From: Alkalibacillus aidingensis
GTDB taxonomy: Bacteria > Bacillota > Bacilli > Bacillales > Alkalibacillaceae
Direction of reading: 5' to 3'
Assembly (NCBI RefSeq): GCF_014595945.1
Contig: NZ_JABXWU010000006.1
Location: forward strand, 1-64,000
Length of the DNA stretch: 64,000 nt
Position 1 is the first letter of the stretch. Each line of letters begins with the position of its first letter. The notes beneath the pieces were generated by a model. The model did no database searches. It worked only from the letters and a program-made list of their open reading frames with translations, and was not told the origin of the DNA. This document shows positions 21,811 through 58,500 of the stretch, piece after piece. Position numbers and translations under genes: made by a program.

Positions 21811-21930
21811 CGAATACGGTTAATTTTAATGAAATACGGTTAAAATTTCAGAAATACGGTTAATTCAGCAGAAATACAGTTAAAATTTCAAATTTACGGT
21901 TAAAATCTCAAAAATACGGTTAATTGAGGA
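21811..21930 (+). repeat. 20-bp-period repeat array A (six units)
   Basis: Cores TAC[G/A]GTTAA start at 21815, 21835, 21855, 21875, 21895 and 21915, exactly 20 bases apart. The linkers are A/T-rich and drift around AAATTTCAGAA. The last unit ends TTAATTGAGGAATTC. It lies in the 457-bp gap 21800-22256 between the WYL regulator and an aldolase gene. The rest of that gap has one isolated unit and weak core-like traces near 22187 and 22204. Confidence 0.9.
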
Positions 21931-22116
21931 ATTCCTTCCACACCCACAATCAAGAATTCTTTCAATTACTCTTAAATATCGGAAAATTATGTCGGATTAT
22001 TGCAATGACCATAAATGCAAGAGAAATACTCCTACTTTATTCAATTTTCCTCTGAATTGTGTAAGAAACCAGGTTTGTGATTCAACCTTCAATCCTCTAA
22101 CATTAATAATGTTTTG

Positions 22117-22136
22117 TAAATACAGTTAATTTTCTG
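22117..22136 (+). repeat. Isolated unit of the 20-bp repeat
   Basis: AAATACAGTTAATTTTCTG is a full match to the array unit, with its core at 22121, about 200 bases downstream of array A and 135 bases before the aldolase start. Confidence 0.65.
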
Positions 22137-22256
22137 CAAGATCTCGTAGACGTGTAGTTTGAATGAGTTTCAGATAGTGTAGCTGAGACAGTTAAAGTGG
22201 AAATACAATAGTAGCACGACTTATTAGACTTACAATGATTAGAGGGAGGATTTTTG

Positions 22257-23048
22257 ATGAGTAATCAAACGGAACGTGTTGTTGGTAAGGGTGTAGAGGA
22301 TTATTTGAAGAAGCCAACTTTTAAAACGGTAGATGAGGAGCGTCAGCATAATAAACAGAAATTAGCTGCAGCATTTCGCTTATTTGGACGCTTCGGATTT
22401 TCAGAAGGTGCTGCGGGACATGTGACTTACCGTGACCCGGAGTTAACGGATCACTTATGGGTAAATCCATATGGGATGCATTTTAGTAAAATAAAAGCAT
22501 CTGATTTAGTGCTTGTTAATAGTCAAGGGGAAGTCGTTGAAGGGAAATATTCTGTTCATAAATCAGCTTTTTCGATTCACTCTGCTGTCCATGAAGCACG
22601 TCCGGATGTGGTTGCTTCAGCACATACGCATTCTGTATACGGTAAGACTTGGTCTGTCAGTGGTCGGTTACTAGATCCACTTACCCAGGATGCATGCGCA
22701 TTCTACAATGATCATTCAGTCTTTGATGAATATAAAGGTGTTGCCTATGATGAGGAAGAAGGGGTGCGAATCGGTAAAGCACTAGGTGATAACAAAGCGG
22801 TGATTCTACGTAGCCATGGTTTGTTAACAGTCGGCCAGTCAGTCGATTCTGCAGCCTTTTGGTTTATTACGATGGAGCGTTCTTGCCAGTCTCAGCTATT
22901 AGCAGAGTCTGCTGGAATTGTGAATCCAATTGCCCCGGAAGATGCTGAACATACGGCCGGACAAGTTGGTCGAGAAATCGATGGTTGGGAAAGCTTTCAG
23001 CCAATGTTTGAGCGTATCGTAAATGAAGAACCAGACTTACTAGAGTAA
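22257..23048 (+). CDS. Class II aldolase/adducin-family protein
   Basis: A 263-residue metal-dependent protein of the class II aldolase/adducin superfamily. The family motifs are GFSEGAAGHVTYRDPE near residue 45, the zinc-binding His pair in ASAHTHSVYGK near 122 and the third His in LRSHGLLTVG near 188. Such proteins cleave sugar phosphates, but an adducin-like or decarboxylase role is equally possible. No kinase or isomerase is adjacent, so the substrate is unknown. ATG 22257 has AGAGGGAGGA upstream. It is flanked on both sides by 20-bp repeat arrays in the same orientation. Confidence 0.85.
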   Translation: MSNQTERVVGKGVEDYLKKPTFKTVDEERQHNKQKLAAAFRLFGRFGFSEGAAGHVTYRDPELTDHLWVNPYGMHFSKIKASDLVLVNSQGEVVEGKYSVHKSAFSIHSAVHEARPDVVASAHTHSVYGKTWSVSGRLLDPLTQDACAFYNDHSVFDEYKGVAYDEEEGVRIGKALGDNKAVILRSHGLLTVGQSVDSAAFWFITMERSCQSQLLAESAGIVNPIAPEDAEHTAGQVGREIDGWESFQPMFERIVNEEPDLLE

Positions 23049-23060
23049 TAGGAAGTGTTG

Positions 23061-23107
23061 AAGCTGCTCGTTAGGGTGAAAGAACCTTACTCGAGCAGCT
23101 TTTTTTA
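23061..23107 (+). terminator. Terminator of the aldolase gene
   Basis: AAGCTGCTCG (23061-23070) and CGAGCAGCTT (23092-23101) are perfect complements, followed by further T. Array B begins directly after the T run. Confidence 0.85.
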
Positions 23108-23207
23108 TGGATACGGTTAATTTTATAGAAATACAGTTAATTTAAATAAAATACGGTTAAAATCTCGGAAATACAGTTAAATTTTAAAAAATACGGTTAA
23201 TTGAACA
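23108..23207 (+). repeat. 20-bp-period repeat array B (five units)
   Basis: Cores TAC[G/A]GTTAA start at 23112, 23132, 23152, 23172 and 23192, again exactly 20 bases apart and in the same orientation as array A. The last unit reads TTAATTGAACAATTC, nearly the same ending as array A. It fills the space between the aldolase terminator and the S9 peptidase promoter region. Confidence 0.9.
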
Positions 23208-23272
23208 ATTCTATAAAAAGAAGTATAATAGTAAGAAATATTTCAATTATCGAAATAATTAGGAGGGGAAAT

Positions 23273-25060
23273 ATGATAGAATTTCCAAAGCCAACGGTTG
23301 AGCAGTTCTTTCGTTCGTATGTTATTTCCAATTTTACAGTAAGCCCTGATGAGGACAAGTTGTTATTTAGTTCAAATCTTAATGGAAAGATGAATGTGTG
23401 GGCGATGAATCTACCAGAGACTTTTCCATATTTATTTGCTCATCAAGATGAATCTAGTAATTTCTTGAAATTTGACCCTAAAGGTCGCTATGTCCTTGCT
23501 GGTTTTGATCGTGATGGGGATGAAAACTATCAAATTTATTCTGTTGCTCCAGAGGGTGGATTGCCTCAGGAGTTGATTACTGGAGAATCTAATGAGAAAT
23601 ATTTCTATGCTCATTTAACTGAAGACGGAAAGCGTCTATATTACATGACGTCTAAAGATAATCCTAACTTCCTAAATGCTAGAGTAAGGGATTTGGAAAG
23701 TGGTCAAGATAAGTTGGTTAATGAAGGTGAACAGGGTCCTACTTATCTAGCAGCTGTATCTGAAGATGAACAATCATTAGTTTTTACCCAAACATTTGCT
23801 AATACATATTCTGTTGCTTTTGTGACAATCAATGGGGAGAAGCATTATTTAACACCAGACCCTAAGCAAGTGCATGTTTGTGGTGGTGCTACTTTTGTAG
23901 GTGAAGAAGCCATCTATTTTGTGACAGACTTTGATAGCAACTATCGTTATGTAGCGAAGTTTGACCTTAATACGAAGTCGTTTAAGAAGGTATTAGAGAT
24001 TGAAAACGAAAGTGTTGGCGATTTGAAATACGATAAAGACCGTCAGCAATTTTTCATTGTCACGGAAAAAGGAGTGACTGACAAGCTTTATCGCTATGAC
24101 TTAGTTAACGGAACGCTTGAGTCAATTGAAGCGCCGGTCGATGTTATTGAAAAAGTGCAAGTCGCAAAATCAGGAAATGTTTATGTGCTCGGGCGTAGTG
24201 CAGTGATTCCACATAATATTTTTAAATATAACGAAGCCAACGTTTGGAAGCAGCTAACGGCCAATCGAGTGTTAGGGGTTAGCCCAGATGATATGGTTGA
24301 CCCGGAAGTTGTGTCGTATCAATCTTATGATGGGATGGAAATTGAATCGTTGTTATTCCGTGCTAAGCCGGAAAATGATAATGGCTACACAATTTTCTGG
24401 CCACACGGAGGTCCACAATCAGCTGAGCGTAAATTCTTCCGCGCGATGTTCCAATGCTTCTTAAATCGTGGGTATTCTATTTTCTGCCCGAACTTTAGAG
24501 GAAGTTCAGGATACGGGTCAGAATATGTCAAACTCGTTGAACAAGATTGGGGAGAAGGTCCACGATTAGATTGTGTTCACGGGGTCCAGTGGTTATTTGA
24601 CCAAGGAATCTCCAATCCAGAAAAACTATTTTTAGTCGGTGGAAGCTATGGAGGTTATATGGCCCTACTACTACATGGTCGCCACGCCGAATACTTTAAA
24701 GCGGTCGTCGATATTTTTGGGGTATCCAATTTATTTACCTTTGTTAATTCAGTTCCTGATCATTGGAAGCCAATTATGGAGCGTTGGTTAGGTGATCCTG
24801 AACGTGACAAAGAGCGTTTTGAAAAAGACTCTCCAGTCACTTACTTAGATGGTATGGAAAAACCAATGCTCGTCATTCAAGGAGCTAAGGATCCTCGTGT
24901 TGTTAAAGAGGAGTCCGATCAAATTGTTGAGAAATTACGCAATCAAGGTCGCGACGTTGATTATCTTGTTTTAGATGATGAGGGGCATGGCTTCTCCAAA
25001 AAAGAAAACGAAATCAAAGTCTACCAAACGATGCTCGATTTTTTAGAAAAGCATCAATAG
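23273..25060 (+). CDS. S9 (prolyl oligopeptidase-family) serine peptidase
   Basis: A 595-residue cytoplasmic peptidase. Residues about 1-345 form a beta-propeller-like region of short WD/PD40-type repeats. Residues about 350-595 are the alpha/beta hydrolase domain with FWPHGGPQ (oxyanion region), Ser in VGGSYGGYMA near residue 457, Asp in GAKDPRV and His in DDEGHGFSKKEN. It is likely an acylaminoacyl or oligopeptide hydrolase. ATG 23273 follows AGGAGGGG; an upstream in-frame extension to 23201 would overlap array B and has no RBS. Confidence 0.9.
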   Translation: MIEFPKPTVEQFFRSYVISNFTVSPDEDKLLFSSNLNGKMNVWAMNLPETFPYLFAHQDESSNFLKFDPKGRYVLAGFDRDGDENYQIYSVAPEGGLPQELITGESNEKYFYAHLTEDGKRLYYMTSKDNPNFLNARVRDLESGQDKLVNEGEQGPTYLAAVSEDEQSLVFTQTFANTYSVAFVTINGEKHYLTPDPKQVHVCGGATFVGEEAIYFVTDFDSNYRYVAKFDLNTKSFKKVLEIENESVGDLKYDKDRQQFFIVTEKGVTDKLYRYDLVNGTLESIEAPVDVIEKVQVAKSGNVYVLGRSAVIPHNIFKYNEANVWKQLTANRVLGVSPDDMVDPEVVSYQSYDGMEIESLLFRAKPENDNGYTIFWPHGGPQSAERKFFRAMFQCFLNRGYSIFCPNFRGSSGYGSEYVKLVEQDWGEGPRLDCVHGVQWLFDQGISNPEKLFLVGGSYGGYMALLLHGRHAEYFKAVVDIFGVSNLFTFVNSVPDHWKPIMERWLGDPERDKERFEKDSPVTYLDGMEKPMLVIQGAKDPRVVKEESDQIVEKLRNQGRDVDYLVLDDEGHGFSKKENEIKVYQTMLDFLEKHQ

Positions 25061-25115
25061 AACGGTTCTCGACTTTTGTCGGTGGAACCCATGTCAATTT
25101 ACGCAAAACAATAAA

Positions 25116-25147
25116 AAGGGCCACAAGTTGGGGTTGGCTCTTTTTTT
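25116..25147 (+). terminator. Terminator of the S9 peptidase gene
   Basis: AGGGCCA pairs with TGGCTCT (one G-U) followed by T7. Confidence 0.75.
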
Positions 25148-25167
25148 CTATATAAGGAGCGAGTCCA

Positions 25168-25887
25168 ATGTGGGGATTAATCGGATTTAATCGAGGTGAG
25201 TATCCTTTTGAGCTATTTAGCCTTTCGCATCTCACTATGTTATTCCTAACGTTTTTATTAGCATTTGCTTTATATAACTATCGTAAAACAATTGCTAAAA
25301 GATACAAGAAGGACTTCACTGTCGTGTTGGTAACTGTTTTAGTTTTAAGTGAATTAACTTTTCATTTGTGGTTTTGGATTCATGGTGAGTGGAGTGTGAC
25401 TGTGAACTTACCACTTCAATTAAGTTCGATCTCCTTATATCTCTGCGCTTTTATGTTATTAACGAAAAACTACCGAATATTTGAAGTTACTTTTTTTATT
25501 AGTATGACTGGTGGTATTATGGCGATGATTACACCTGAATTATATTTTGGGTTCCCACACATGAGATTTTTCCAGTTTTTCATCGCACACTTTGTGATTA
25601 TATTAGCGTGCTTGTATATGTTTTGGGTGGAAAAATACCATCCAACGCTTAAGTCTGTGCTTCGTGCATTTGTCGCACTCAATGTCATCGCTCTGTTAGT
25701 GTATGGGGTGAATCAATTAATTGGATCAAATTACATGTTTCTAAATGGAAAGCCAAGTAGCACAACTTTACTTGATTACCTCGGCCCTTATCCATGGTAT
25801 ATATTATCCTTAGAAGGGATTACTATTATATTATTTTTGGTGATTTATGGAATGGTAGTAATAACGAGTCGTGGTAAGAGGGGGTAA
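25168..25887 (+). CDS. YwaF-like integral membrane protein (TIGR02206 type)
   Basis: A 239-residue protein with about six or seven hydrophobic segments. The features LPLQLSSISLYLCAFML, PELYFGFPHMRFFQFFIAHFVIILACLYMFW and YMFLNGKPSSTTLLDYLGPYPWYILSLE are those of the TIGR02206/YwaF family. Function unknown. It starts 20 bases after the previous terminator with AAGGAGCGAGTCC upstream. Confidence 0.8.
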   Translation: MWGLIGFNRGEYPFELFSLSHLTMLFLTFLLAFALYNYRKTIAKRYKKDFTVVLVTVLVLSELTFHLWFWIHGEWSVTVNLPLQLSSISLYLCAFMLLTKNYRIFEVTFFISMTGGIMAMITPELYFGFPHMRFFQFFIAHFVIILACLYMFWVEKYHPTLKSVLRAFVALNVIALLVYGVNQLIGSNYMFLNGKPSSTTLLDYLGPYPWYILSLEGITIILFLVIYGMVVITSRGKRG

Positions 25888-25995
25888 TATTAAACTATTC
25901 AACAATCATTCCACCTCTATCCATTAAACAATCATAGTCCAAGCCACCTCCTCATAAATAGATATGTAAGTCTAATTTGAAAGGTGGTATCTTAA

Positions 25996-26673
25996 GTGTA
26001 TTATTCCCCATATTCGCCACTTCCTTACCATGTTACCAGTCAGGTTCAACCAGATGAGAAGCGGGTAATGACTGTAGTTGGAGAAGGCATCGTGACAGTT
26101 GAGCCTAATGTAGCTGAAGTGCGATTAGGAGTTGTCAGTCAAGATGAATCACTTACCCATGCACAAAGTGAAAATTCGGAGTTAATTAACCAAGTAATGG
26201 TGTCGATACAAGGTCTTGGAATTCCTCGCGAGAAGATCCAAACGGTAGATTACTCGATCCGTCCACGATATGACTATGTTGACGGGGTACAGCAGTTTAG
26301 AGGGTATGAGGTGAGCCATAGTTTACAAGTCACGATTGACGAGATCTCTCAAGCTGGTCGGGTAATTGATGTGGCAGTGCAAAGTGGAGCAAATCGCGTT
26401 TGGAGTGTTGAGTTGGTATATCGCAATCAACAAAACGTTTATCAAAGTGCGTTAAGAAAAGCTCTTGAAAGTGCAGTTGCTAAAGCAGTAACCTTAGCTA
26501 ATGCGATGGGTGCATCGCTTGATTCAACTCCAATAAAGATTGATGAACAGGTCGATGAACAACCGATTACTTATCAAGCATTCACAGAAGTGGAGTCGCC
26601 TGGTACAACAATTGAACCGGGGCAGTTAGTGATTAGTGCGCGTGTGGAAGCACAATTCCAGTATATCTCGTAA
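25996..26673 (+). CDS. SIMPL-domain protein
   Basis: A 225-residue protein whose residues about 22-222 form a SIMPL domain (MTVVGEGIVTVEPNVAEVRLGVVSQDESLTHAQSEN...IQTVDYSIRPRYDYVDGVQQFRGYEVSHSLQVTI). Many SIMPL proteins are exported, but this one has only a Tyr/Pro-rich N-terminus (MYYSPYSPLPYH) and no signal peptide, a composition seen in spore coat-associated proteins. A GTG start is chosen because AAGGTGG sits eight bases upstream. Function unknown. Confidence 0.8.
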   Translation: MYYSPYSPLPYHVTSQVQPDEKRVMTVVGEGIVTVEPNVAEVRLGVVSQDESLTHAQSENSELINQVMVSIQGLGIPREKIQTVDYSIRPRYDYVDGVQQFRGYEVSHSLQVTIDEISQAGRVIDVAVQSGANRVWSVELVYRNQQNVYQSALRKALESAVAKAVTLANAMGASLDSTPIKIDEQVDEQPITYQAFTEVESPGTTIEPGQLVISARVEAQFQYIS

Positions 26674-26837
26674 TGATCTTCTTCCTAAACTCTCCTTTCT
26701 TTCTTTTCGACCCTCTCTGGAATATCATTTCGGTGTCACTCACTTTGACGGTGGTTAAATCCAATTCCTTGAAACTCATTTCCTCTTATGAGTACATTAT
26801 AGTAGAAGGGAATAAATAGAGATGAGGGGGCACCGAG

Positions 26838-27476
26838 ATGAAGGCAGTCTTAATTCATGGATTCTTTAGAAAAGATAAAGATATGATTCCATTAGCAGAA
26901 TACTTACAGAAGAAAGGGTATGATTGTTTTACCCCCGACCTACCATTGACATTTAATGAGTTTGACTTAACCGTTTCTTTAGTTGAAGACGTCTTAGAAG
27001 GGATTGTAAAGTCGGGCATAGCCCCTGGGGAGAAGATTCATTTTATTGGGCATAGTACAGGTGGATTAGTGATCCGTAAACTTATTGCTGATACGAAGTA
27101 TAAAGATCATATTGGTAGATGTGTATTAATTGGTACACCTAACCGTGGCAGCCAGATAGCAGACCTTGCTAGTAAAGTTCGTGGCTATGTTACAGTGTTT
27201 AAAACAGTTCGCTCACTAAGTACAGATTACTTAGAGAATGTAGACTTTTCTCATGATACTGGAATTGAAATCGGGGCGATTGCAGGTAATCGGAGTAATA
27301 TTGCTGCTGATAAACTGATCAAAGGAGAGAATGATGGATATGTCGAGGTGGATTCTGTTTATTACCCCGGGTTAAAAGATTTTAAGGTGCTTCATTTAGG
27401 GCATAAAGAGCTCCACCATAGTGAGGTGACAGCTGGGTGCGTTGATCGATTCTTACGTTCAGGAAAATTTGATTAA
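26838..27476 (+). CDS. Lipase/esterase-like alpha/beta hydrolase
   Basis: A 212-residue protein. VLIHGFFRKDKDM is the oxyanion-hole region, Ser is in FIGHSTGGLVIRKL near residue 77 (GHSxGG), and CVLIGTPNRGSQIADL resembles the DUF676/PGAP1-like lipases that include acyltransferase-like proteins. A likely acid is in KGENDGYVEVDS and the His in LGHKELHHS. No signal peptide, so it acts in the cytoplasm. GAGGGGGCACCGAG precedes the ATG. Confidence 0.8.
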   Translation: MKAVLIHGFFRKDKDMIPLAEYLQKKGYDCFTPDLPLTFNEFDLTVSLVEDVLEGIVKSGIAPGEKIHFIGHSTGGLVIRKLIADTKYKDHIGRCVLIGTPNRGSQIADLASKVRGYVTVFKTVRSLSTDYLENVDFSHDTGIEIGAIAGNRSNIAADKLIKGENDGYVEVDSVYYPGLKDFKVLHLGHKELHHSEVTAGCVDRFLRSGKFD

Positions 27477-27487
27477 AGATAAAAGAA

Positions 27488-27525
27488 GGCCATCAACCGT
27501 ATTCTCGGCTGATGGCCCATTTATT
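27488..27525 (+). terminator. Terminator of the lipase-like gene
   Basis: GGCCATCA (27488-27495) pairs with TGATGGCC (27510-27517) followed by CATTTATTT. Confidence 0.7.
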
Positions 27526-27570
27526 TCTAGGAATCTAATATTCTATGATGTGTTAAAATTAACCGTTGAA

Positions 27571-27693
27571 TTAAAATACTTTTAATACTTGAAAAATTGA
27601 CTTATGTGATCTCTCAACTTTTTTGCTAGGAGTAGTGTATTGTTTTCTCTTATCTGTCACAATTGCTTCACGTAGTAAGTGATGATCAAACAT
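27571..27693 (-). CDS. Small basic protein (40 aa), unknown
   Basis: A 40-residue, strongly basic peptide (MFDHHLLREAIVTDKRKQYT... ending FQVLKVF), without membrane segment or cysteines. It is supported by an excellent AAGGAGGCGATTT ribosome binding site. The reading frame continues upstream to 27786, but that part has no RBS. It is divergent from sbcD. A second small gene on the far side of sbcC has almost the same leader. Function unknown. Confidence 0.5.
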   Translation of the reverse strand: MFDHHLLREAIVTDKRKQYTTPSKKVERSHKSIFQVLKVF

Positions 27694-27995
27694 GTAAATC
27701 GCCTCCTTGTAGCGAATCATTGTTTCCATACTATAGTATACCCAGGTTTTGGTTTTGTGTAAACAAATTGGCATTAAATTAACCAAAAAAGTTTCACATT
27801 GTATTAGAAGTCTAATTATATAAAACTTTCTGAAAATAGTACACCCTAAACACCCTCCAACATGTTCAAATATTCAGAATAAAATCAATATTGATAAAAA
27901 GAGGTAAATTGTCGATTGCACAACTAATTGTAAATCTATGTTTGAAGAAGTGGAATTATGTTGGAGTTCGTGATAAAATTAAGAAACACAAAACA

Positions 27996-28009
27996 CGAAC
28001 ATACGTTTC
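27996..28009. promoter_or_regulatory. SOS (LexA/DinR) box upstream of sbcDC
   Basis: CGAACATACGTTTC matches the Bacillus LexA box CGAACRNRYGTTYC at every defined position. It lies 40 bases before the sbcD start, just downstream of a possible -10 (TAAAAT, 27974-27979). It is the only clear element in the 356-bp gap 27694-28049. The implication is LexA repression of sbcDC released on DNA damage. Confidence 0.8.
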
Positions 28010-28049
28010 TTTTCTGGATGATTAAACGATTTTGTAAAGGATGATGTCG

Positions 28050-29204
28050 ATGAAAATCTTTCACACTGCTGATTGGCACCTAGGTAAACTTGTACAAGGG
28101 GTATACATGACGGAAGATCAGCGCTTTATTTTGGATCAATTTGTCAAAGAAATTGAGCAGGAAAGACCAGATGTGGTCGTAATTGCCGGTGATTTGTATG
28201 ACCGAGGAGTCCCACCAACGGAAGCTGTTCACTTATTAGATGACGTTTTAGGTAAGGTTGTATTAGAACTTCAAATACCTGTTGTTGCCATTGCCGGAAA
28301 CCATGATAGCCCAGGACGTCTAAACTTCGGAAGTAATATAATGAGAAATAAAGGGCTACATATTGTTGGGGAGCTATCACCAGAGCTAGAGCCTGTCGTA
28401 TTAAATGATGATCATGGAGAGGTTCATTTCCATTTAGTTCCCTATTGTGACCCAAGTGTCGTCCGTCAACTGTTTAATGATGATCAGATTCGTACCCATC
28501 AAGATGCCACTGAGAAACTAACTTCTGAAATTAAGACAAATATGGATAAGCAAGCGAGGCATGTATTGGTCGGTCATTTATTCGCGACACCCCAAGGTAA
28601 GGAAAAAGAGAATACAAGCGATTCAGAACGACCATTATCAATTGGTGGAGCAGAACATGTGGATGCTAATTTATTTAAAGACTTCAATTATACGGCGTTA
28701 GGGCATTTACACCAAGCGCACCATGTAGGTAATGAAACCATTCGCTATTCGGGCTCACCATTGAAATACTCAATCTCAGAAGAAAACCACAAAAAAGGGT
28801 ATCTAATTGTGGACCTAGACGAAAATGGTTCAGTTGATGTGGAGAAACGATTATTAGAACCACGGTTAGATTTAAGAACCGTAGAAGCTACTATGGAAGA
28901 ATTGTTACAGCATGAAGTAAATGAAGATTATGTGTTTGTTAGATTACTAGATGAAACCCCGGTTTTATACCCTATGGAAAAAATCCGCTCAGTCTATCCA
29001 AATGCCATGCACGTAGAACGCCAAATTAATAAAGGTAAGCAAACTGAATCAGGTCAAACCGAAAAGATTCAACGACATAAGATGACTGATCAGCAATTGT
29101 TCAGAGCTTTTTATGAAGAAGTTAAAGGTGAAGCGCCAAGTGAGGAAACAGAGAAAATTATGCAAGAAGTATTTGAAGATCTATTAAATGAAGAGCGTCA
29201 TTAA
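28050..29204 (+). CDS. sbcD: Exonuclease SbcCD, subunit D
   Basis: A 384-residue Mre11-type nuclease that with SbcC cuts hairpins and protein-blocked DNA ends. The phosphoesterase motifs are in order: DWHLGK, AGDLYDRG, GNHDSPGR, VGHLFATP and LGHLHQAH, holding the two metal ions. The C-terminal capping region follows (about 280-384). ATG 28050 gives the standard MKIFHTADWHLG start with AAAGGATGAT at good spacing; two earlier in-frame ATG/ATG codons are closer to that site. It forms an operon with sbcC, 22 bases apart. Confidence 0.95.
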   Translation: MKIFHTADWHLGKLVQGVYMTEDQRFILDQFVKEIEQERPDVVVIAGDLYDRGVPPTEAVHLLDDVLGKVVLELQIPVVAIAGNHDSPGRLNFGSNIMRNKGLHIVGELSPELEPVVLNDDHGEVHFHLVPYCDPSVVRQLFNDDQIRTHQDATEKLTSEIKTNMDKQARHVLVGHLFATPQGKEKENTSDSERPLSIGGAEHVDANLFKDFNYTALGHLHQAHHVGNETIRYSGSPLKYSISEENHKKGYLIVDLDENGSVDVEKRLLEPRLDLRTVEATMEELLQHEVNEDYVFVRLLDETPVLYPMEKIRSVYPNAMHVERQINKGKQTESGQTEKIQRHKMTDQQLFRAFYEEVKGEAPSEETEKIMQEVFEDLLNEERH

Positions 29205-29226
29205 ATTATGAAAGGAAGCGATGTTA

Positions 29227-32319: not shown

Positions 32320-32323
32320 AATA

Positions 32324-32362
32324 AAAGCTCCAAGCCATTATTTTAATTTGGCTAGGAGCTTT
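32324..32362. terminator. Bidirectional terminator after sbcC
   Basis: AAAGCTCC (32324-32331) pairs with GGAGCTTT (32355-32362), extended inward by AGCCA/TGGCT. It separates sbcC from the convergent small gene. Confidence 0.8.
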
Positions 32363-32381
32363 ATACATGGATTATACAGCA

Positions 32382-32549
32382 TTATGCAAGTTTCTGCTTG
32401 TGCTTTGGTGATTCATTTTTTACCAAACGACGCTTATTAAACAAACGTTTGATTGAAAGTAACCTATCTGGTTGATAGGCATGCTCAGAGATGTATTTTG
32501 TTTGTAAATCCTTGAGCATTACTTCTTTCACCATAGTATCTATAGACAT
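32382..32549 (-). CDS. Small basic protein (55 aa), unknown
   Basis: A 55-residue peptide (MSIDTMVKEVMLKDLQTKYI...), basic in its C-terminal half (LFNKRRLVKNESPKHKQKLA). The start is set by ACGGAGGCGATTTTT directly upstream; the frame is open to 32615 but without another RBS. Its leader resembles that of the small gene at 27571-27693, the two flanking sbcDC. No recognised domain. Confidence 0.5.
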   Translation of the reverse strand: MSIDTMVKEVMLKDLQTKYISEHAYQPDRLLSIKRLFNKRRLVKNESPKHKQKLA

Positions 32550-32716
32550 AAAAATCGCCTCCGTTTCACTTACTATATAAAGTTTACCGTGTTCATTAAT
32601 GGTTCTAAACGGCATGGAGGTCGATTTTACTTCATTCTATGGACTGAACAAATATCAGTCTGAGATATTGAAGGGGGAAGAGACTTTGAGTTATGAAGAA
32701 GGGCAAATTAGATGGG

Positions 32717-43314: not shown

Positions 43315-43553
43315 CTTTTCTTCACCTTCTTTACATGTTCAACTATGTATTATGAATATTTACTAAGTATTATGACTTTAATTACTTTAGTATATATGTT
43401 CTGGTAAGAATAGACAATAAACGAAAATAAAGGGTTTATCATCAAAAAGTACCGTACAATCAACAAAAATGGAGAATCTATCAACAAAATCATGGTTCCA
43501 ATCAACATCTTGAGTTTATTTTAACCTTGAAATCAGTGTCTCGAACTAAAGTC

Positions 43554-47968: not shown

Positions 47969-47981
47969 GGGGGTGTGAGTG

Positions 47982-50363: not shown

Positions 50364-50370
50364 AAGTGAA

Positions 50371-50401
50371 AAAACCTGACGTAGTGTCTACGTCAGGTTT
50401 T
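50371..50401. terminator. Bidirectional terminator between lnrN and htpX
   Basis: AAAACCTGACGTAG (50371-50384) and CTACGTCAGGTTTT (50388-50401) are perfect 14-bp complements with a 3-base loop, flanked by further A and T. Confidence 0.9.
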
Positions 50402-50406
50402 TAGGA

Positions 50407-51312
50407 TTATTTTTGTTCTAAACGTGCAATACGCTCATCTAAATCAGGGTGAGAAGAAAATAATCTTGCTGCTCCACCCTTGTTATTGATTTTCATCGTT
50501 TGAATGGCTGTATCATCACTGTGGTCATTAGCATTACTTAAAGTGTTCTTAAGCGAACGTAGTGCATGAGCCATTTTATCTTTACCTGCTAAGTCAGCAC
50601 CACCACGGTCAGCATGGAATTCACGATGACGTGAGTATGCCATAACAACCAGGCTTCCTAGAATTGAGAATAGGATTTGGAACACGATGATCGCAATGAA
50701 GTGAACAATCATTCTCATTTCCTCACGTACGAAGTTGGAAACCACTGCAGCAACAATACGTGATAAGAATACAACGAATGTGTTAATGACACCTTGTAGT
50801 AATGTCATTGTCACCATATCACCATTTGAGACGTGTGCCACCTCATGTGCAAGTACACCTTCAACAGCGTCATCGTCCATAGATTGTAATAGACCTGTTG
50901 ATACAGCAACTAGCGAACGTTTTTTGGTTGGACCGGTTGCGAAAGCATTAACTTCTTGAGAACGGTAAATTCCTACTTCAGGCATATGCATTAAACCAGC
51001 TGCACGAGATAGGCGATGGACGCGCTCTACTAATTGGCGCTCAGCTGTTGTTAAATTATCATTAGGATCTAGTACACGGACTTTCATCATTTTCTTAGCC
51101 ATCCAACGGGACATTGCTAAGGAGATAAAAGCACCTGAAAAACCGACTAATAAACTAAACACAGCTAGTGATGTATAATTAATACCTAAGGCACCACTAC
51201 CATCATATGTTGGTCCGATATCTGTAAAAGAGACAATCGCTGACCAAACAATCATAATTGTGGTTAACACAAGAATGTTTGTTAATAAGAAAAATAAAAT
51301 TCTTTTACCCAC
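50407..51312 (-). CDS. htpX: HtpX membrane metalloprotease
   Basis: A 301-residue M48 zinc protease for quality control of membrane proteins. Two N-terminal membrane segments (about 5-27 and 45-67) precede the catalytic site [13 protein letters not shown] (HExxH) near residue 162. Two more membrane segments follow, then the third ligand region [17 protein letters not shown]. The C-terminus [12 protein letters not shown] is typical of HtpX. Confidence 0.94.
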
Positions 51313-51350
51313 TGCGTTTCCCCCTATAGATTTCTTGTTTGTCCTTTATT

Positions 51351-51379
51351 ATTATACCACGAAAAAATAAACCTTAAAA
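51351..51379 (-). promoter_or_regulatory. Extended -10 promoter of htpX
   Basis: On the minus strand TGGTATAAT (51359-51351) gives an extended -10. The -35 (TTTTAA, 51379-51374, 17-bp spacing) is weak. It lies 39 bases before the htpX start. Confidence 0.5.
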
Positions 51380-51491
51380 TAAATTTACATTTGAATTGTA
51401 TTGTATAAACAATTTTAGGAACTGAAAGGTAACAGTCAAGCTTAGTAGGCATATGTTAAATAATGAGAAAAATAAATATAGGAGGAAGAAT

Positions 51492-52124
51492 ATGTATCCA
51501 TATTTTTACTATCCGAATAACGTTGATCACTTCCACCGAGCCCCCGACACGGAACAGCCTCTTTTTCATATGCCGTTCTTTTATCGGCGCCAATCCATTC
51601 AAGGACAGGCGACATGGACAGAAGGAGGGGCAGTAACAAAATGTGATATTCCTTGGTCCGATAATCAATTTATGACTGTTGCAGTGAGTCCACAAAGTGA
51701 GTTTAGATGTGGTCAAATGTTAAAAGTACGTAACCCAGCAACTCAACGGGAAATATTAGTTGAAGTTGTTGATACAGTAGATGAATTTCCGGGAAATCAT
51801 ATCAATCTCCACCGTCGTGCATTTGAAGCACTAGGTGCAAATCCAGGAGTTGGGATTGTTGATGTCGTCATATCACCTGCACCAGATTTAGAGGAAGAAG
51901 AGTTTGGTAAGTATTTAATGGAAATTGTGCGCGTAGCTTACCCTGGTTATAACATTGTTGATTATGAATTCGTTGGATCTGAAGAAGTAGCTGAAAATCG
52001 TGTGAGTGAGACGTACAATTATGTCGTTGAATCACCTCAGGAACGAGTAACTGTTCAAGGTCATGTCGTTTATAATCCACGAACAGATCGAGTGATTTCA
52101 TTCGATTTGGAGGAGTTAGAATAG
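51492..52124 (+). CDS. DPBB (RlpA/expansin-like) plus DUF3889 protein
   Basis: A 210-residue protein. The Tyr/Pro-rich N-terminus (MYPYFYYPNNVDHF) is not a signal peptide and resembles coat-associated proteins. Residues about 33-125 form a double-psi beta-barrel (QATWTEGGAVTKCDIPW...FRCGQMLKVRNPATQREILVEVVDTVDEFPGNHINLHRRAFEALG) with the conserved Asp and hydrophobic positions of RlpA/expansin folds. Residues about 135-205 resemble DUF3889 (EIVRVAYPGYNIVDYEFVGSEE). ATG 51492 follows AGGAGGAAGAAT. A role at the spore or cell surface is inferred. Confidence 0.75.
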   Translation: MYPYFYYPNNVDHFHRAPDTEQPLFHMPFFYRRQSIQGQATWTEGGAVTKCDIPWSDNQFMTVAVSPQSEFRCGQMLKVRNPATQREILVEVVDTVDEFPGNHINLHRRAFEALGANPGVGIVDVVISPAPDLEEEEFGKYLMEIVRVAYPGYNIVDYEFVGSEEVAENRVSETYNYVVESPQERVTVQGHVVYNPRTDRVISFDLEELE

Positions 52125-52129
52125 TGTGA

Positions 52130-52160
52130 ATGTGCGCTTCGGGTGAGGCGCACATTTTAG
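52130..52160 (+). terminator. Terminator of the DPBB gene
   Basis: ATGTGCGC (52130-52137) pairs with GCGCACAT (52148-52155) followed by TTTAGTTT. Confidence 0.75.
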
Positions 52161-52201
52161 TTTACCCTATAAGTTAATAAAGGCTATAATAAACAGTAAG
52201 T

Positions 52202-52321
52202 CTAATTAACCGTATTTTCCTGAAATTAACCGTATTTCTGAAAAATTAACTGTATTCTGCTCAAATTAACTGTATTTCAGAAACTTTAACTGTATTTTCT
52301 CGAAATTAACCGTATTTCTTA
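52202..52321 (-). repeat. 20-bp-period repeat array C (six units, inverted)
   Basis: The complement of the core, TTAAC[C/T]GTA, occurs at 52206, 52226, 52246, 52266, 52286 and 52306, exactly 20 bases apart. The units therefore read on the minus strand, opposite to arrays A and B. It lies between the DPBB gene terminator and the DUF456 gene. Confidence 0.9.
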
Positions 52322-52349
52322 AAATCTAAATGATTGAGAGTGATCGTTT

Positions 52350-52841
52350 ATGGAACTTACAGAAATCATCATGTGGGTGTTGGTGGCTGGTTTGTTCTTG
52401 TTGAGTTACATAGGGATTATTTTCCCAATAGTACCTGCCCCATTAGTAGTCTGGGGTGGATTTTTTGTCTATCATTTTGGAATCAATCGTGAGGAACTAA
52501 CATGGGTGTTTTGGACGTCGATGATTATTCTAACTATAATCGTTGTCGTGGCTGATGTTATTGCAAATAGTTATTTCGTCAAAAAGTATGGAGGTACTAA
52601 GCGTGGTGAATGGGCAGCAGCAATTGGTGTCATCATTGGTGCGTTTATTATGCCACCGTTAGGGATTTTAGTTGTACCTGTTATTGCAGTGTTCGTCGTT
52701 GAGTTATTACAAAAACGAACGGCAGAAGAGGCAGCGAAGGCTTCAGTTGGGTCACTTCTAGGGTTCTTAAGTGGTGCGTTTGCCAAATTTGTCACCTTAA
52801 CGATTATGATCATTTGGTTTCTCATTGTGGTTATGACGTAG
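52350..52841 (+). CDS. DUF456 membrane protein
   Basis: A 163-residue protein with four or five hydrophobic segments and Gly-rich turns (YIGIIFPIVPAPLVVWGGFFVYHFG; VVADVIANSYFVKKYGGTKRGEWAAAIGVIIGAFIMPPLGILV), the hallmark of DUF456 (YqgC-like). Function unknown. The start follows GAGAGTGATCGTTT. It begins 29 bases after array C, so that array overlaps its promoter region. Confidence 0.8.
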   Translation: MELTEIIMWVLVAGLFLLSYIGIIFPIVPAPLVVWGGFFVYHFGINREELTWVFWTSMIILTIIVVVADVIANSYFVKKYGGTKRGEWAAAIGVIIGAFIMPPLGILVVPVIAVFVVELLQKRTAEEAAKASVGSLLGFLSGAFAKFVTLTIMIIWFLIVVMT

Positions 52842-52935
52842 CTTGATCTAGTTCAGACTAAATAAAGAAGTGCTTTTTAGAGTTCGGACAAAGGATTAAT
52901 CATCATAAATACTACGTTTAAGTGAGGTAATTTAA

Positions 52936-54243
52936 TTGCAAAAGATTTGGCTCTCATTAATGGTTGGATTCGTTTTTTTATTAGTAAGTTGTTCGAACGA
53001 AGAAGTAATGGATGATAACAATATAAAAAACACCTTAATAGGTAACTGGCAAGGTATGATTGAAACACCCGACATGCCTTTGAATGTTTTGGTAACTTTT
53101 GAAGAAGTTGATGAAGATGACTTAGCCGGGAAGATCAGTATTCCTATGCAAGGGTTGACGGATTTCCCATTGTCCGACTTGAAGGTATCTGATGATGATA
53201 TCCGATTTGATATGGACTTGCCTGGTCAGTTTATTCGCTTTGTTGGTGACTTAGAGCATGAAGAGCGTATAGAAGGCACGTTCACGCAACAAGGACAATC
53301 CTTTCCGTTTCATTTACAAAAAGGTGAGTTGTCAAGTGAAGAAGATGAAGAGGCTAATCTCGTTTCAGTTGAAACAGATGACGGCACTTTACAAGGTGAG
53401 TTATTGGAGCCAAATAAAGATGGGCCATCACCTGTCGTATTAATCATTCCTGGTTCAGGCCCGACTGATCGGCACGGGAACTCACCAGGGGTAGGTCAGA
53501 ATAATAGCTTGAAGTTATTAGCTGAAGCTTTAGCAGATAAGGGAATAGCTAGTGTGCGCTATAGTAAGCGTGGAGCTTTAGAAAATTCGGATGCTATTGT
53601 TCCTGAAGAAGACATGCGCTTTGATGACTTTATACAAGATGCAGTCTACTGGTTAGAAATGCTTAAAGAAGATGACCGTTTTAATGAAGTAGGTATCATT
53701 GGCCATAGTCAAGGAGCATTAGTGGGTAAGTTGGCATCACTCGATGTCGAGGTTGATGCGATCATTTCAATCGCTGGAGCAGGACGTACAATTGATGATG
53801 TATTAAGGGAACAGTTGGCCGTCCAACTACCGGAACATTTAATGATAGAGGCGGATAAGATTCTTAATCAAATAGCTGAAGGAAATGTCGTAGAAGATGT
53901 CTCAACTGAATTACAAAGTACATTTCGGCCAGGAGTACAACCATTTTTAGGGTCTTGGATGGCATATGATCCAAGTGAGATCATGACTAAGGTAGATGCT
54001 AACACTTTAATTGTCCAAGGTGAACACGATCTACAGGTAACTAAAGAAGATGCTGAACAATTAGCAAAAGCAAAACCAGAAGCTGAATGGGTTGTGATAG
54101 ATGGAATGAACCACGTGTTAAAAGATTCTCCGGAAGATCGTATGGGGAATTTAGCAACTTATCAGGATCCAACATCACCTCTTGCTGAGGGGTTAGTTGA
54201 AGAAATTATTTTATTTTTACAAGAGCCATTCAATCTTGAATAA
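52936..54243 (+). CDS. Lipoprotein with C-terminal alpha/beta hydrolase domain
   Basis: A 435-residue protein. MQKIWLSLMVGFVFLLVSC is a signal peptide with lipobox LVSC (Cys19). Residues about 30-130 form a beta-rich N-terminal domain (GNWQGMIETPDMPLNVLVTFEEV) and residues 140-435 an alpha/beta hydrolase, with IIPGSGPTDRHGNS at the oxyanion region, Ser in IIGHSQGALVG near residue 260, Asp in VQGEHDLQV and His in GMNHVLKD. Related lipoproteins are putative esterases. TTG start after GTGAGGTAATTTAA. Confidence 0.82.
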   Translation: MQKIWLSLMVGFVFLLVSCSNEEVMDDNNIKNTLIGNWQGMIETPDMPLNVLVTFEEVDEDDLAGKISIPMQGLTDFPLSDLKVSDDDIRFDMDLPGQFIRFVGDLEHEERIEGTFTQQGQSFPFHLQKGELSSEEDEEANLVSVETDDGTLQGELLEPNKDGPSPVVLIIPGSGPTDRHGNSPGVGQNNSLKLLAEALADKGIASVRYSKRGALENSDAIVPEEDMRFDDFIQDAVYWLEMLKEDDRFNEVGIIGHSQGALVGKLASLDVEVDAIISIAGAGRTIDDVLREQLAVQLPEHLMIEADKILNQIAEGNVVEDVSTELQSTFRPGVQPFLGSWMAYDPSEIMTKVDANTLIVQGEHDLQVTKEDAEQLAKAKPEAEWVVIDGMNHVLKDSPEDRMGNLATYQDPTSPLAEGLVEEIILFLQEPFNLE

Positions 54244-54284
54244 TAAGTAGGCTTAATGAACCATAATTGAAGAAACTAACCAAA

Positions 54285-54321
54285 AATCCCTGCAACAGTT
54301 CGAATACTGTTAGCAGGGATT
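54285..54321. terminator. Bidirectional terminator between convergent genes
   Basis: AATCCCTGC (54285-54293) pairs with GCAGGGATT (54313-54321), extended by AACAGT/ACTGTT. Confidence 0.85.
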
Positions 54322-54326
54322 CATTT

Positions 54327-55256
54327 TTAGTCAAGCTTTTGAAGGTAATTATTTAATACTTTGGCGATTTGTTTCATCCCATATTGACCAACTTTAAGCT
54401 CGGCATCAGAGTTATAGTTGGTGTTGGTATTAACATCATAGGTGAAAATCTCATCATTATTATTTTGAATGAATTCAATGCCGGCAAAATCGATCCCATT
54501 ATCCTTTAAGAATTTCTCATATTTATGGATGATCGGATCAGCAAAGTTCTCAATAATTTGGAACTTTTCACGTGTGTTTTCCGTGGTCACACAAAACTGA
54601 TCCTCAATGGAGCAGGCATCAGCAGGGCAAAGTTCAAAGCCTTCTGATGTGTCGACTTTGACCGCGTAGAAAAACTTACCGTCGATAAATTCACAACGTG
54701 TAATGGTCGAGTCAGGTGATTCAACATACTGCTGTAATAAGGTTATACCGTCAATTGGCTCTTCGAATTCATTACTATTAACATAGCTTTCAAGCGCCTC
54801 AACACTCTGGAATAGTTGAACACCTAAACCTTTCCCTGCTCGATTATGCTTGGTGATAAATGGTTTTTCCATTTGATGAGCACCTTCAATCATTTGTTCT
54901 TTACCGACAGTGACCATTGTTTGAGGCGTTCGGATTCCAGCTTTTTGTAATGCTGTATATTGTCTTGCTTTATTAATCTCTAAGTCTAGAGCATGACTTC
55001 CATTTAATACAAGACGCTCGTGTTCTTCTAACCATGCGAGTATGGTTGAAGTTAATTCTGGTGCATAGCGATGTCCCCGTGAATGAGAGGATGCACTCAT
55101 TCGGTTATAAAATACCCCATTGGGAGGAGTTTCGGTTAAATCGATATGTCCCTCATGAATGAACCAGCTTTCATAAGGAGCACCCAGCTCTTCTAATGCT
55201 TCGATAAGTGGTTGAGTCCATTCGTCATTTTCGTGAATGATGTATATTTTTTTCAT
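54327..55256 (-). CDS. ATP-grasp (RimK-like) ligase
   Basis: A 309-residue protein of the RimK/ATP-grasp group that joins a carboxylate to an amine with ATP. The N-terminal region (about 1-95) binds substrate. The ATP-grasp core has the Lys in KPFITKHNRAGKGLGVQLF near residue 138, LLQQYVES, and the metal-binding acidic residues in DFAGIEFI and YDVNTNTNYNSDAE. It may make a glutamyl-modified or peptide product, but no partner gene is adjacent. AAGGAGC precedes the ATG. Confidence 0.82.
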   Translation of the reverse strand: MKKIYIIHENDEWTQPLIEALEELGAPYESWFIHEGHIDLTETPPNGVFYNRMSASSHSRGHRYAPELTSTILAWLEEHERLVLNGSHALDLEINKARQYTALQKAGIRTPQTMVTVGKEQMIEGAHQMEKPFITKHNRAGKGLGVQLFQSVEALESYVNSNEFEEPIDGITLLQQYVESPDSTITRCEFIDGKFFYAVKVDTSEGFELCPADACSIEDQFCVTTENTREKFQIIENFADPIIHKYEKFLKDNGIDFAGIEFIQNNNDEIFTYDVNTNTNYNSDAELKVGQYGMKQIAKVLNNYLQKLD

Positions 55257-55357
55257 AAAAAAGCTCCTTTTAAAACTAAAATTATTCCGATTTGTTTACT
55301 AGTATATTTAAAATGACAGTAAAATGAAACTTATAAGCATTTTCTAGGAGTTTTGTC

Positions 55358-55386
55358 TTGGTTTATTGGAAATGTAGTGGTATAGT
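55358..55386 (+). promoter_or_regulatory. Promoter of the diguanylate cyclase gene
   Basis: TTGGTT (55358-55363), a 17-bp spacer and TATAGT (55381-55386) preceded by TGG (extended -10). It lies 53 bases before the ATG. Confidence 0.6.
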
Positions 55387-55438
55387 ATGGATAATTCTTA
55401 AAAATTCGACATAAATTAATAGATTGGTGATGACAATC

Positions 55439-56872
55439 ATGAACAAGCATTTAAGTGCACAAGATATATTAATAGAGCAGAGTAAAGTGATTGAATTATT
55501 AGCGATGGAACAAATTCCATTGTGGGATACCTTAAAACATCTAATTAGCACTTTGGACCTATCTTTAGAGGGAATCTATTCATCAATTCTTCTTCTTGAT
55601 AAAGATTCCAATCAACTAGGGAATGCAATTGCTCCTAATTTGCCGAGTGATCTTGTGAAGATGTTTAAGGGAATTGAAATAGGACCTCAATCTGGTTCTT
55701 GTGGAACGGCTGCTTATCTTAACGAACCTGTGTTGGTAGAAGATATTCATGACAGTCTACTATGGGAAGGATTAAGTGACAAACTGGGATCGTTTGGTAT
55801 CCGTTCATCCTGGTCTAAACCCATTACCTCAACAAATGGTGAGTTATTTGGGACACTTGCCTTTTATTCCAAAGAAAAACGCTTACCAACTGAAAAGGAA
55901 ATGCAGGTATTTGATGCCTTTGCAAACCTAGCGGCTGTTATTATTGCCAAGAAGAAATCTGAGGAATCAGTTAGGTTAGCTGAGACGGTAATTGAAAGCA
56001 CACCGGCTGTTGTCCTACGCTGGAAAAATGAACCTGGTTGGCCGATTGAGTATATATCTAAAAACGTCGAACAGTTTGGTTATTCGTCTTGTGACTTTTT
56101 AGGTGAGAAAACCCCGTTTTCATCGATTATTCATGAAGATGACCTCGATCGTATCACTGATGAAGTAGAATATTACAAGCAAAACGGCATTAATGAATAT
56201 CAACAAGAGTATCGCATTAGAACTAAGGATGGTTCTATTAAATGGGTTGATGACCGGACGATCATTATTAGAGGATATGATAATCAAATAAAGTATATTG
56301 AAGGGGTTTTAATCGATATAACTGATCGCAAACGGGCTGAAAAGCAAGTTCAATTCTTTGCTAATAATGACCCTTTGACTGAATTGCCAAACCGTCGTTA
56401 TTTTAAAGAGAAGTTAGATCAAGTGTTAAAGGATGCACGTCATCAAAACCGACGTATAGCCCTGTTATACTTAGATTGTGATAACTTTAAGAAGATTAAT
56501 GATGATTTAGGACACGATGCTGGGGATGAGTTTTTAACTTATTTAGCTAGGAGATTGAAAAATGCGGTACGAGAAGAAGATTTGATTGCTCGGATCGGTG
56601 GAGATGAATTTAATGTATTGGTGAGGAATGTTTATTCTGATTTAGATGTTCAGCGAGTCGCAGAGCGTTTAATTGAGACAGTATCCAAGCCGTGGGAGGT
56701 CGATGGTAATATTTATCATGTCACCATGAGTGTTGGAGTTGCTGTTTATCCTAGTGATGGTGAGGCTGGAGATGAGTTAATTAAGCGTGCAGATCAGGCT
56801 TTATATCGCGCTAAACAAGGTGGTAAGAATCAAGTTGTATGGTACTTAAATGACCATCCTTCAGCAAAATAG
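55439..56872 (+). CDS. GAF-PAS-GGDEF diguanylate cyclase
   Basis: A 477-residue soluble protein. Residues about 20-170 are a GAF domain (SCGTAAYLNEPVLVEDIHDSLLW; SWSKPITSTNGELFGTLAFYS). Residues about 180-295 are a PAS domain plus PAC (YQQEYRIRTKDGSIKWVDDRTII). Residues about 305-477 are a GGDEF domain with intact RIGGDEFNVL and an RxxD allosteric site (REED) five residues before it. It should therefore make cyclic di-GMP and be product-inhibited. No EAL domain. ATG 55439 follows TTGGTGAT; earlier in-frame ATG 55430 is too close to this site. Confidence 0.9.
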   Translation: MNKHLSAQDILIEQSKVIELLAMEQIPLWDTLKHLISTLDLSLEGIYSSILLLDKDSNQLGNAIAPNLPSDLVKMFKGIEIGPQSGSCGTAAYLNEPVLVEDIHDSLLWEGLSDKLGSFGIRSSWSKPITSTNGELFGTLAFYSKEKRLPTEKEMQVFDAFANLAAVIIAKKKSEESVRLAETVIESTPAVVLRWKNEPGWPIEYISKNVEQFGYSSCDFLGEKTPFSSIIHEDDLDRITDEVEYYKQNGINEYQQEYRIRTKDGSIKWVDDRTIIIRGYDNQIKYIEGVLIDITDRKRAEKQVQFFANNDPLTELPNRRYFKEKLDQVLKDARHQNRRIALLYLDCDNFKKINDDLGHDAGDEFLTYLARRLKNAVREEDLIARIGGDEFNVLVRNVYSDLDVQRVAERLIETVSKPWEVDGNIYHVTMSVGVAVYPSDGEAGDELIKRADQALYRAKQGGKNQVVWYLNDHPSAK

Positions 56873-57027
56873 TTGAAAGTTCTATAATAATTTCCCTCTA
56901 AGTCCTTTTTAAATTAATGATTTGTGCTAAAATAGTATAAAAGTTTGAATTTTCGATTAATATAAACTAAATGGTTGATTGAAAAAGAGTGCTAATAGAC
57001 TTTTCTTGCTTAATGGGGGAATCGAGG

Positions 57028-57261
57028 GTGAAGCTATTCTCACGTATTTTTATAGGGCTAGGTGTTATATCTATAGTAGTAGGAGTATTTCCCATTGTTT
57101 TTGTTTACCCAACGGAACCGTGGGATGGTGTATTAGATTTTTTAACTTATATATTGCTTGATGCCCCGGACCGAGGCTTTTGGCAAATTGGCATCGTGCT
57201 GTTGCTCGTTGGCATTTGGCTACTTAAGAAACAGAGGAAAAAAGGACGGATATTCTATTAA
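57028..57261 (+). CDS. Small two-pass membrane protein, unknown
   Basis: A protein of about 77 residues with two hydrophobic segments (residues about 4-26 and 52-68) and a basic tail (KKQRKKGRIF). GTG 57028 is preferred because GGGGGA lies eight bases upstream and the frame before it is unlike protein. No family recognised. A terminator follows. Confidence 0.55.
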   Translation: MKLFSRIFIGLGVISIVVGVFPIVFVYPTEPWDGVLDFLTYILLDAPDRGFWQIGIVLLLVGIWLLKKQRKKGRIFY

Positions 57262-57285
57262 TTTTAAGCTTATACCAAAGTAACG

Positions 57286-57330
57286 CTTCCATGAAAGAGG
57301 GACATGTTCTCCCTCGTGGAAGTTTTTTAT
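57286..57330 (+). terminator. Terminator after the small membrane gene
   Basis: CTTCCA (57286-57291) pairs with TGGAAG (57317-57322), enclosing GAGGGA/TCCCTC, followed by T6. Confidence 0.85.
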
Positions 57331-57417
57331 TTTGATAAATCAATAGTATTATATGTTGTAATTATTTGAAAAATAGCTACTATATTAAGTATACCAATTT
57401 GAAGGGATTGTTGCTTA

Positions 57418-58386
57418 TTGATTCTAAAAGATCACGACAAACCAATAAAGCTCTGGAAGTATGAATCTATTAACAGCCGGATTGTTCATGGCCATACCAA
57501 TCAGCTGCCTATTCAAGATGCTGTTCGGATCATTCGTGCTGGTGATCGAGGAGAGAGGTCACTTGATTATTATGTGAATTTAATTGACCATGAGCGAACG
57601 TGCTGTATTCATGACTTACGATTACCATGGCGAGATTATTATTTTCAGATGGATACATTGCTTCTAAACCCTGCTTGGATGTTGATCGTCGAAGTTAAAA
57701 ATATGGTTGGTGATATTTATTTCAACCAAGATACTAAACAAATGCTCCGCACGATCGAAGACTACACAGAACCCTTTCCAGACCCACTCCTTCAAGTTCA
57801 AAAACACCAATTTTAATTAGAACAAGTTTTTCATCAAAACGGTTACCCTCCTATCCCGATTTACACGCTAGTCGTTTTTGCTAATCGGAAAAGTATTCTC
57901 CATATTAAACAAGACAACCATTTCCACCGTGGTCAAGTCATTCCAATTCATGCCTTTTTATATCATTATCGACAGTTTAACAAGCGAGATGAACCTAGTT
58001 TGATTGAATATAGTAGATTAGAAGAACTGGGTCAGGCTCTTGTTGCTGATCATGTTCCTTATTCTGAAGACGTGATTGAAAAATATCAGTTGAAAAGTGA
58101 TGATCTACGCTTTGGGGTGTTTTGTCCAGACTGTGGTGCTTTGCCAATGGTACGCCAATGGGGCACGTGGATGTGTACTCAGTGCGGGGGGAAGTCAAGC
58201 CACGCGCATATCCCTGCCTTACGAGATTATGCATTAATTTTTGGTGAGGAAATCACGAACGCACAAGCACGGGAGTTCCTCAAAGTCGATAACCCTCAAG
58301 TGATTAAATATTTATTGAAGAATATGAACTTACCTACTGCCGGAAGAGGGAAGGGGACTAGATATATCTTAGGTGGTTTAGTGTAA
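57418..58386 (+). pseudogene. NERD-domain gene interrupted by an in-frame stop
   Basis: One continuous frame of 323 codons is broken only by TAA at 57814-57816. Before it lie the NERD (nuclease-related) domain residues (GDRGERSLDYYVNLI; YFQMDTLLLNPAWMLIVEVKNMVGDIYF). After it the same frame continues as LEQVFHQNGYPPIPIYTLVVFANRKSI, then a zinc ribbon (CPDCG...CTQCG) and a helical C-terminus. The codon was probably CAA (Gln), one C-to-T change. No frameshift and no start with an RBS follows, so it is a recent pseudogene, a sequencing error or a read-through gene. TTG start after GAAGGGATTG. Confidence 0.85.
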
Positions 58387-58500
58387 TTAACTGTATTTTT
58401 AGGATTTTAACCGTATTTTCGTTAAATTAACTGTAAATCTCAGAAATTAACCGTAAATCCAAAATTTTAACCGTATTTCTGAAATTTTAACTGTATTTAA
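58383..58500 (-). repeat. 20-bp-period repeat array D (six units, inverted)
   Basis: TTAAC[C/T]GTA occurs at 58387, 58407, 58427, 58447, 58467 and 58487, exactly 20 bases apart, in the same orientation as array C. It begins at the stop codon of the NERD gene and lies between it and the convergent permease gene. Confidence 0.9.

Follow-up and report, generated by a model that had tools for sequence, protein, structure and literature searches.

Four arrays of a short direct repeat lie between the genes of the window analyzed here, 64,000 nucleotides of one contig (C22) of the draft genome of Alkalibacillus aidingensis. The question raised by this locus is what holds the repeated units in a constant 20-bp register while the sequence between them varies, and what such arrays do behind genes. 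Our analysis indicates that the four arrays belong to a larger family in the same genome, that this family is one of several built to the same design, and that binding by a protein is the explanation that best accounts for their conserved register.

The arrays and their genomic positions

The motif TACRGTTAA occurs 26 times in the window, where 1.07 occurrences are expected and the maximum among 100 shuffles was 4. Twenty-three of these are units of the arrays A to D, with 6, 5, 6 and 6 units and with every unit step exactly 20 bp, as the initial annotation had described; the other three, at 22121, 30471 and 59581, are isolated cores. Array A (21811..21930, cores 21815-21923, + strand) contains six 20-bp units, the first core beginning 16 bp past the stop codon of a gene for a WYL-domain protein of 335 aa (20792..21799, + strand). 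Array B (23108..23207, cores 23112-23200, + strand) has five units and is flanked by an intrinsic-terminator-like hairpin with a T-run (23060..23106, + strand, identified by eye) and by the start region of a peptidase S9 gene; its last unit merges into TTGAAC, by eye a possible -35 box. The six units of array C (52202..52321, cores 52206-52314, - strand) are flanked by a DUF3889 gene and a DUF456 gene. Array D (58383..58500, cores 58387-58495, - strand), also of six units, has two converging frames around it, and its first core base abuts a frame end at 58386. The annotation had stated that no terminator or reading frame overlaps the arrays, which has to be qualified for two of them, B following directly on the terminator-like T-run and the first core of D directly on a frame end. 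By eye, two adjoining short frames ahead of array D (57418-58386) may be parts of one protein; a Pfam scan of the second gave no match.

The whole-genome scan proposed in the initial annotation was carried out on the draft genome (2.84 Mb in 25 contigs). The two-unit pattern gave 44 matches, the reversed-pattern control none. The family amounts to ten arrays with 59 units on six contigs: four on C22, two on C25 and one each on C5, C12, C19 and C24. Nine arrays have six units, if three altered units are counted, and B has five. The core is exact in 56 units, the altered ones being one in C19 and two in C25a, and 47 of the 49 steps are 20 bp, with two 21-bp exceptions that both occur in C5. A search tolerant of two mismatches recovered three further degenerate units, two of them in C25 and one in C19, besides two stray weak matches.

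As to the position of the arrays relative to promoters and 3' ends, which had also been proposed as a check, all ten have the stop codon of a neighbouring open frame at a distance of at most 82 bp, the frames being called by length and verified as genes for some only. In the C12 array a frame of 322 codons has its stop codon inside the first core. A likely start codon is found within ~75 bp downstream of arrays B, C and C5. Ten flanking proteins, with the flanks of C5, C12 and C24 left out, were scanned for domains; they comprise WYL, class II aldolase, peptidase S9, DUF3889, DUF456, TauE, DUF2196, polysaccharide deacetylase, a globin with reductase domains and one protein without a match, and have no evident common function. 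The WYL-domain gene ahead of array A is the single match of its kind in the source genome, and none is found in five congeners. Of 397 genomes in the order, 89, the source genome included, contain matches to the WYL protein, those outside the source with at most 32% identity; since remote matches are so common across the order, the gene is no more than a lead, and its product a weak candidate for a partner of the arrays.

The conserved site and a proposed bound protein

The core TAC[G/A]GTTAA given in the initial annotation is real, although the conserved site is longer. It can be written as A[AA/TT]TACRGTTAA[AA/AT/TT]T, ~15 bp, and leaves ~5 freely variable bases per unit. There are 33 exact matches to this site genome-wide, the sole one outside the arrays being AAATACAGTTAATTT at 22118..22132 (+ strand). 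Only the inner flanks were tabulated, and for the nine arrays other than C5. The left pair (n=44) is AA in 33 cases, TT in 10 and AT in 1, while the right pair (n=44) is TT in 21, AA in 16, AT in 5, and AC and AG in 1 each. AA and TT are thus exchanged as pairs, TpA occurs in none of the 88 flank dinucleotides, and the coupling between the flank bases is highly significant (p = 4e-9 and 2e-7, uncorrected for shared ancestry). This pattern is what the reading of narrow AT tracts through the minor groove would leave, and common descent of the units could contribute to it.

The linkers present a different picture. In nine arrays (C5 left out), linkers of the same index in different arrays agree at 5.94 of 11 positions, linkers of different index at 5.69, and linkers within an array at 5.29. 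They are therefore nearly unrelated both between and within arrays, which bears out the earlier observation that the register is better conserved than the sequence and argues against recent block copying of arrays; the copying of whole arrays as blocks was rejected on the near equality of the same-index and different-index values. There are nevertheless four identical linker pairs where 0.36 are expected (p = 0.0018). A wedge model of curvature, applied to the AT-rich TACRGTTAA family only, gave each of nine arrays a value exceeding at least 184 of 200 composition shuffles. RNA folds of A to D on both strands were unremarkable (z from -1.43 to +1.27), and an Rfam search of the window returned nothing at gathering score.

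The combination of a retained register and core with divergent linkers is best explained by cooperative binding of a protein along one face of the helix. The initial annotation had already proposed a cooperatively binding protein. The near-invariant core, the strict register, the unremarkable RNA folds and the TpA-avoiding flanks all favour that proposal, and the binding itself stays predicted. We consider it somewhat better than an even chance that the arrays are directional ladders of sites for a cooperative, face-selective DNA-binding protein, situated close behind genes and possibly serving as boundaries. Each array would offer about six directional sites to one sequence-specific protein, which would read the ~9 bp of TACRGTTAA together with the narrow minor groove of the AT-only flanks on each side. 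With two helical turns from one site to the next, the bound copies would share one face and could touch, so that binding to the already curved DNA may be cooperative and may produce a compact nucleoprotein stretch of ~120 bp. Behind genes, such a complex might act as a boundary, either as a roadblock to read-through or as a chromosome anchor. The local clustering of arrays and the few shared linkers suggest that the arrays arose by copying within the genome, followed by change of the linkers. Against the binding of a protein, the several cores found in one genome (see below) would require several proteins or one that is changeable, and the register is broken twice, by 21-bp steps, in C5.

Sister families in the same genome and in relatives

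The annotation had treated the repeat as a single unique family, a view that does not hold, as several families of phased arrays are present in the same genome and the class is found in other genomes of the family. These were identified by a period scan for a largely constant 12-base window that recurs at a fixed lag over at least four units. Contig C12 (419 kb) contains 28 such arrays, one of which has a period of 15 bp and lies inside a long frame. Among the other 27, the period is 20, 21, 41 or 42 bp in 12 and 51-53 bp in 15. Periods of 20-21 and 41-42 bp correspond to two and four turns of the helix, and 51-53 bp to five. Nine of the 27 arrays are spanned by an open frame of 100 codons or more, and the 18 unspanned arrays alone give the same periods. 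The frames on either side are converging for 10 of the 27, tandem for 12 and diverging for 5, two of the 27 sharing one gap; this contig has 201 intergenic gaps that measure 60 bp or more, and the corresponding numbers for these are 37, 114 and 50.

The 20/21-bp arrays of C12 consist of directly repeated units, whose cores include CACGGATTG, TGTTGATTG, CAGTCGGAC and AGTGTCGATAA. Exact pairs of CACGGATT were found on five contigs and of TGTTGATTG on three. Arrays of CACGGATTG and TGTTGATTG adjoin at three loci (C12:369810-370157, C4:51948-52061 and C23:14060-14248). Close imperfect palindromes around TCTATCGGACA, TCTAATTGACGG and TCTCTTTGACC make up those of the fifteen 51-53-bp arrays (C12:1-419000) that were inspected by eye, and the longest cluster of this kind extends over ~870 bp. 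The window itself contains a second, weaker family at 43403..43507 (- strand), with ~five degenerate 21-bp units and a core near TTTTGTTGATTG; it is absent from the exact matches of the genome-wide search for sister-core pairs.

In sampled sequence of the five congeners (626 kb) there are 10 noncoding arrays with four or more units, nine with a two- or four-turn period and one with a period of 61 bp. All noncoding arrays fall into the period classes in three other family members, G006 (6 of 6 in 140 kb), G008 (11 of 11 in 320 kb) and G020 (1 of 1 in 40 kb), as do two of the three found in 299 kb from 20 genomes of the order, the third having a period of 66 bp. The five congeners and these three other family members carry phased arrays in the sampled sequence, with cores other than TACRGTTAA. 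No noncoding array was seen in 480 kb from G007, G011 and G018, where one 51-bp array lies inside a frame, nor was one seen in 168 kb from ten other family members or in 150 kb from E. coli. In total, outside the window and with C12 included, 47 of the 49 noncoding arrays that reach four units have a two-, four- or five-turn period, the 49 being non-independent draws, as families recur within a genome, with at least a dozen different cores by eye. One congener array (L162:5) falls within a 285-codon frame once joined with the adjacent stretch and was thus not counted among the 49. Arrays inside frames have periods of 12, 15, 48 or 54 bp, or of 21, 51 and 53 bp, and three-unit matches of period 15 and 32 also occur in G008. 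The choice of period 20 versus 21 is not significantly related to GC content (p = 0.15, with one coding array in the count). Within ~11 kb of one G008 contig (L196, G008:C2) TTAACMCTGAAG or its complement forms three arrays with a 21-bp period.

The TACRGTTAA core has a much narrower distribution. Its exact two-unit pattern is found in none of 59 relatives, the five congeners included. By eye, the orthologous intergenic site of array B in two congeners and that of array D in four are without such an array, and at the site of array C the congeners have another frame between the flanking genes. A hairpin with a T-run also follows the gene preceding the array B site in the congeners G001 and G002 (by eye). 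The initial annotation had made its interpretation depend on related genomes having arrays, and at other than random spacing. This test had a mixed outcome: arrays of the same design and of equally strict spacing do occur in relatives with other cores, whereas this core at 20-bp spacing is confined to the source among 60 genomes.

The genomes G004 and G005, from two closely related species and ~91% identical over aligned stretches, permit two orthologous sister-family arrays to be compared. These differ in length by 42 and 20 bp, that is by two units and one unit. Their cores are identical at 67 of 72 and 46 of 55 positions and the downstream flanks at 116 of 130 and 194 of 219; for the linkers the values are 36 of 54 and 14 of 38, figures that depend on the alignment of units and may be lowered by misaligned units or unit turnover. 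Between these species the cores of sister arrays change less than the linkers, and the register and most of the core persist. More tentatively, and with the chances somewhat against it, we suggest that several lineages of one family, each with its own cores, have several intergenic array families with a period fixed at two or five turns, in which cores are retained and linkers vary freely, representing a general, fast-turnover system of paired proteins and phased sites that organises the chromosome or gene ends.

Alternative explanations and known repeats

The alternative that survives best, although we regard it as rather unlikely, is that the arrays are selfish, satellite-like repeats without host function, copied and expanded by recombination or transposition that requires the core, and surviving because they land behind genes. 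This would fit the absence of the TACRGTTAA pattern from congeners, including the two orthologous sites viewed directly, the identical linker pairs, the gain or loss of units between G004 and G005, and the clustering of four of the ten arrays inside 36.6 kb (p = 0.0018 for random placement on a circle). A copied array, however, ought to keep its linker order, which the index comparison does not bear out, and cores would not be held under free drift. Candidate enzymes were sought in 12 genomes. Copying by a reverse transcriptase was rejected, as RVT_1 has no match in the source genome, one each in G001, G005 and G020 and two in G011. A RAYT was likewise rejected: Y1 transposase matches number one in the source, one in G008 and two in G018, whose samples are array-free, with none in the five array-carrying congeners or in G006, G020, G007 and G011. 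REP/BIME elements, which are associated with RAYT transposases, are intergenic and often lie behind genes. The present arrays resemble them in this position, and the 52-bp sister arrays read by eye resemble them in their palindromes, but the 20-bp unit has no dyad and the RNA folds of A to D are no better than those of shuffles. CRISPR spacers are ~30 bp, whereas the linkers here are 11 bp.

A second alternative, which we consider improbable, is that the arrays mimic or descend from iterons or centromeres of plasmids or phages (Rep or ParR sites) and, as decoys or relics on the chromosome, titrate incoming replicons. Iterons are described as direct repeats of 17-22 bp, arranged in tandem at a constant phase and bound cooperatively in a phase-dependent manner (PMC4980987). 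The present arrays share this repeat length and constant phasing, and the repeats bound by ParR of pSK41 are also 20 bp long (PMC9426499). Here, however, ten loci are dispersed over six contigs, and no rep protein and no par protein such as parM or parR is among the ten flanking proteins scanned. Array A, the only array tried, had no match (E 0.01) in 72,556 plasmid and 50,697 phage records. Three TTAACNGTA cores with gaps of 9-13 bp occur in 62 stretches of a public genome collection and in 13 of a viral collection, none with variable linkers in an exact 20-bp register, the collections possibly omitting the source genome and its close kin. Slightly less probable still are ordinary regulator operators of one regulon: arrays B, C and C5 do lie upstream of likely start codons, but the scanned neighbours are functionally unrelated, a stop codon is close to every array, and the exact pattern is absent from congeners, as was directly seen at two sites.

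The closest known kind of repeat is the STAR elements of Staphylococcus, in which a short motif is also directly repeated at many intergenic loci that differ between species and vary in unit number (PMC3532100). Their consensus is GC-rich and 14 bp long, T(G/A/T)TGTTG(G/T)GGCCC(C/A), their loci carry a start signature, and their spacers of 40-44 bp are often near identical within a locus; function and spread are described as unknown (PMC3532100). The arrays described here are similarly interspersed at species-specific intergenic loci, with the exception of the C12 core that overlaps a stop codon. They differ in having a 9-bp AT-rich core, TACRGTTAA, in 56 of 59 units, linkers of 11 bp (12 at two places in C5) with a within-array identity of 5.29 of 11, a 20-bp register and mostly six units. 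Because motif, spacing and spacer uniformity all differ, the arrays were not filed as STAR elements.

Strict helical phasing, a near-fixed number of six units and the recurrence of the same two period classes in sister families seem to be new; a literature search yielded nothing recognisable on 20/21-bp and 52-bp phased arrays, which is no proof of absence from print. Intergenic repeats with short cores, such as STAR, have long been known without a function. The conservation of register above sequence, in several families per genome, points to binding by a protein and, if one is found, the arrays would represent a fast-evolving DNA-organising or boundary system. In Bacteroidota and unassigned bins (L052, L066, L076, L084 and L092, also L089) there are three- and four-unit arrays around GTTAACNGTA with 21-bp spacing and variable linkers, possibly the same design in another phylum, with a core that was fixed by the search pattern. 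Homogeneous 20-bp arrays of TTAACGGTA or TTAACAGTA occur in the uncultured Bacilli bins L053, L054, L080, L098 and L099, at or near the end of a contig piece.
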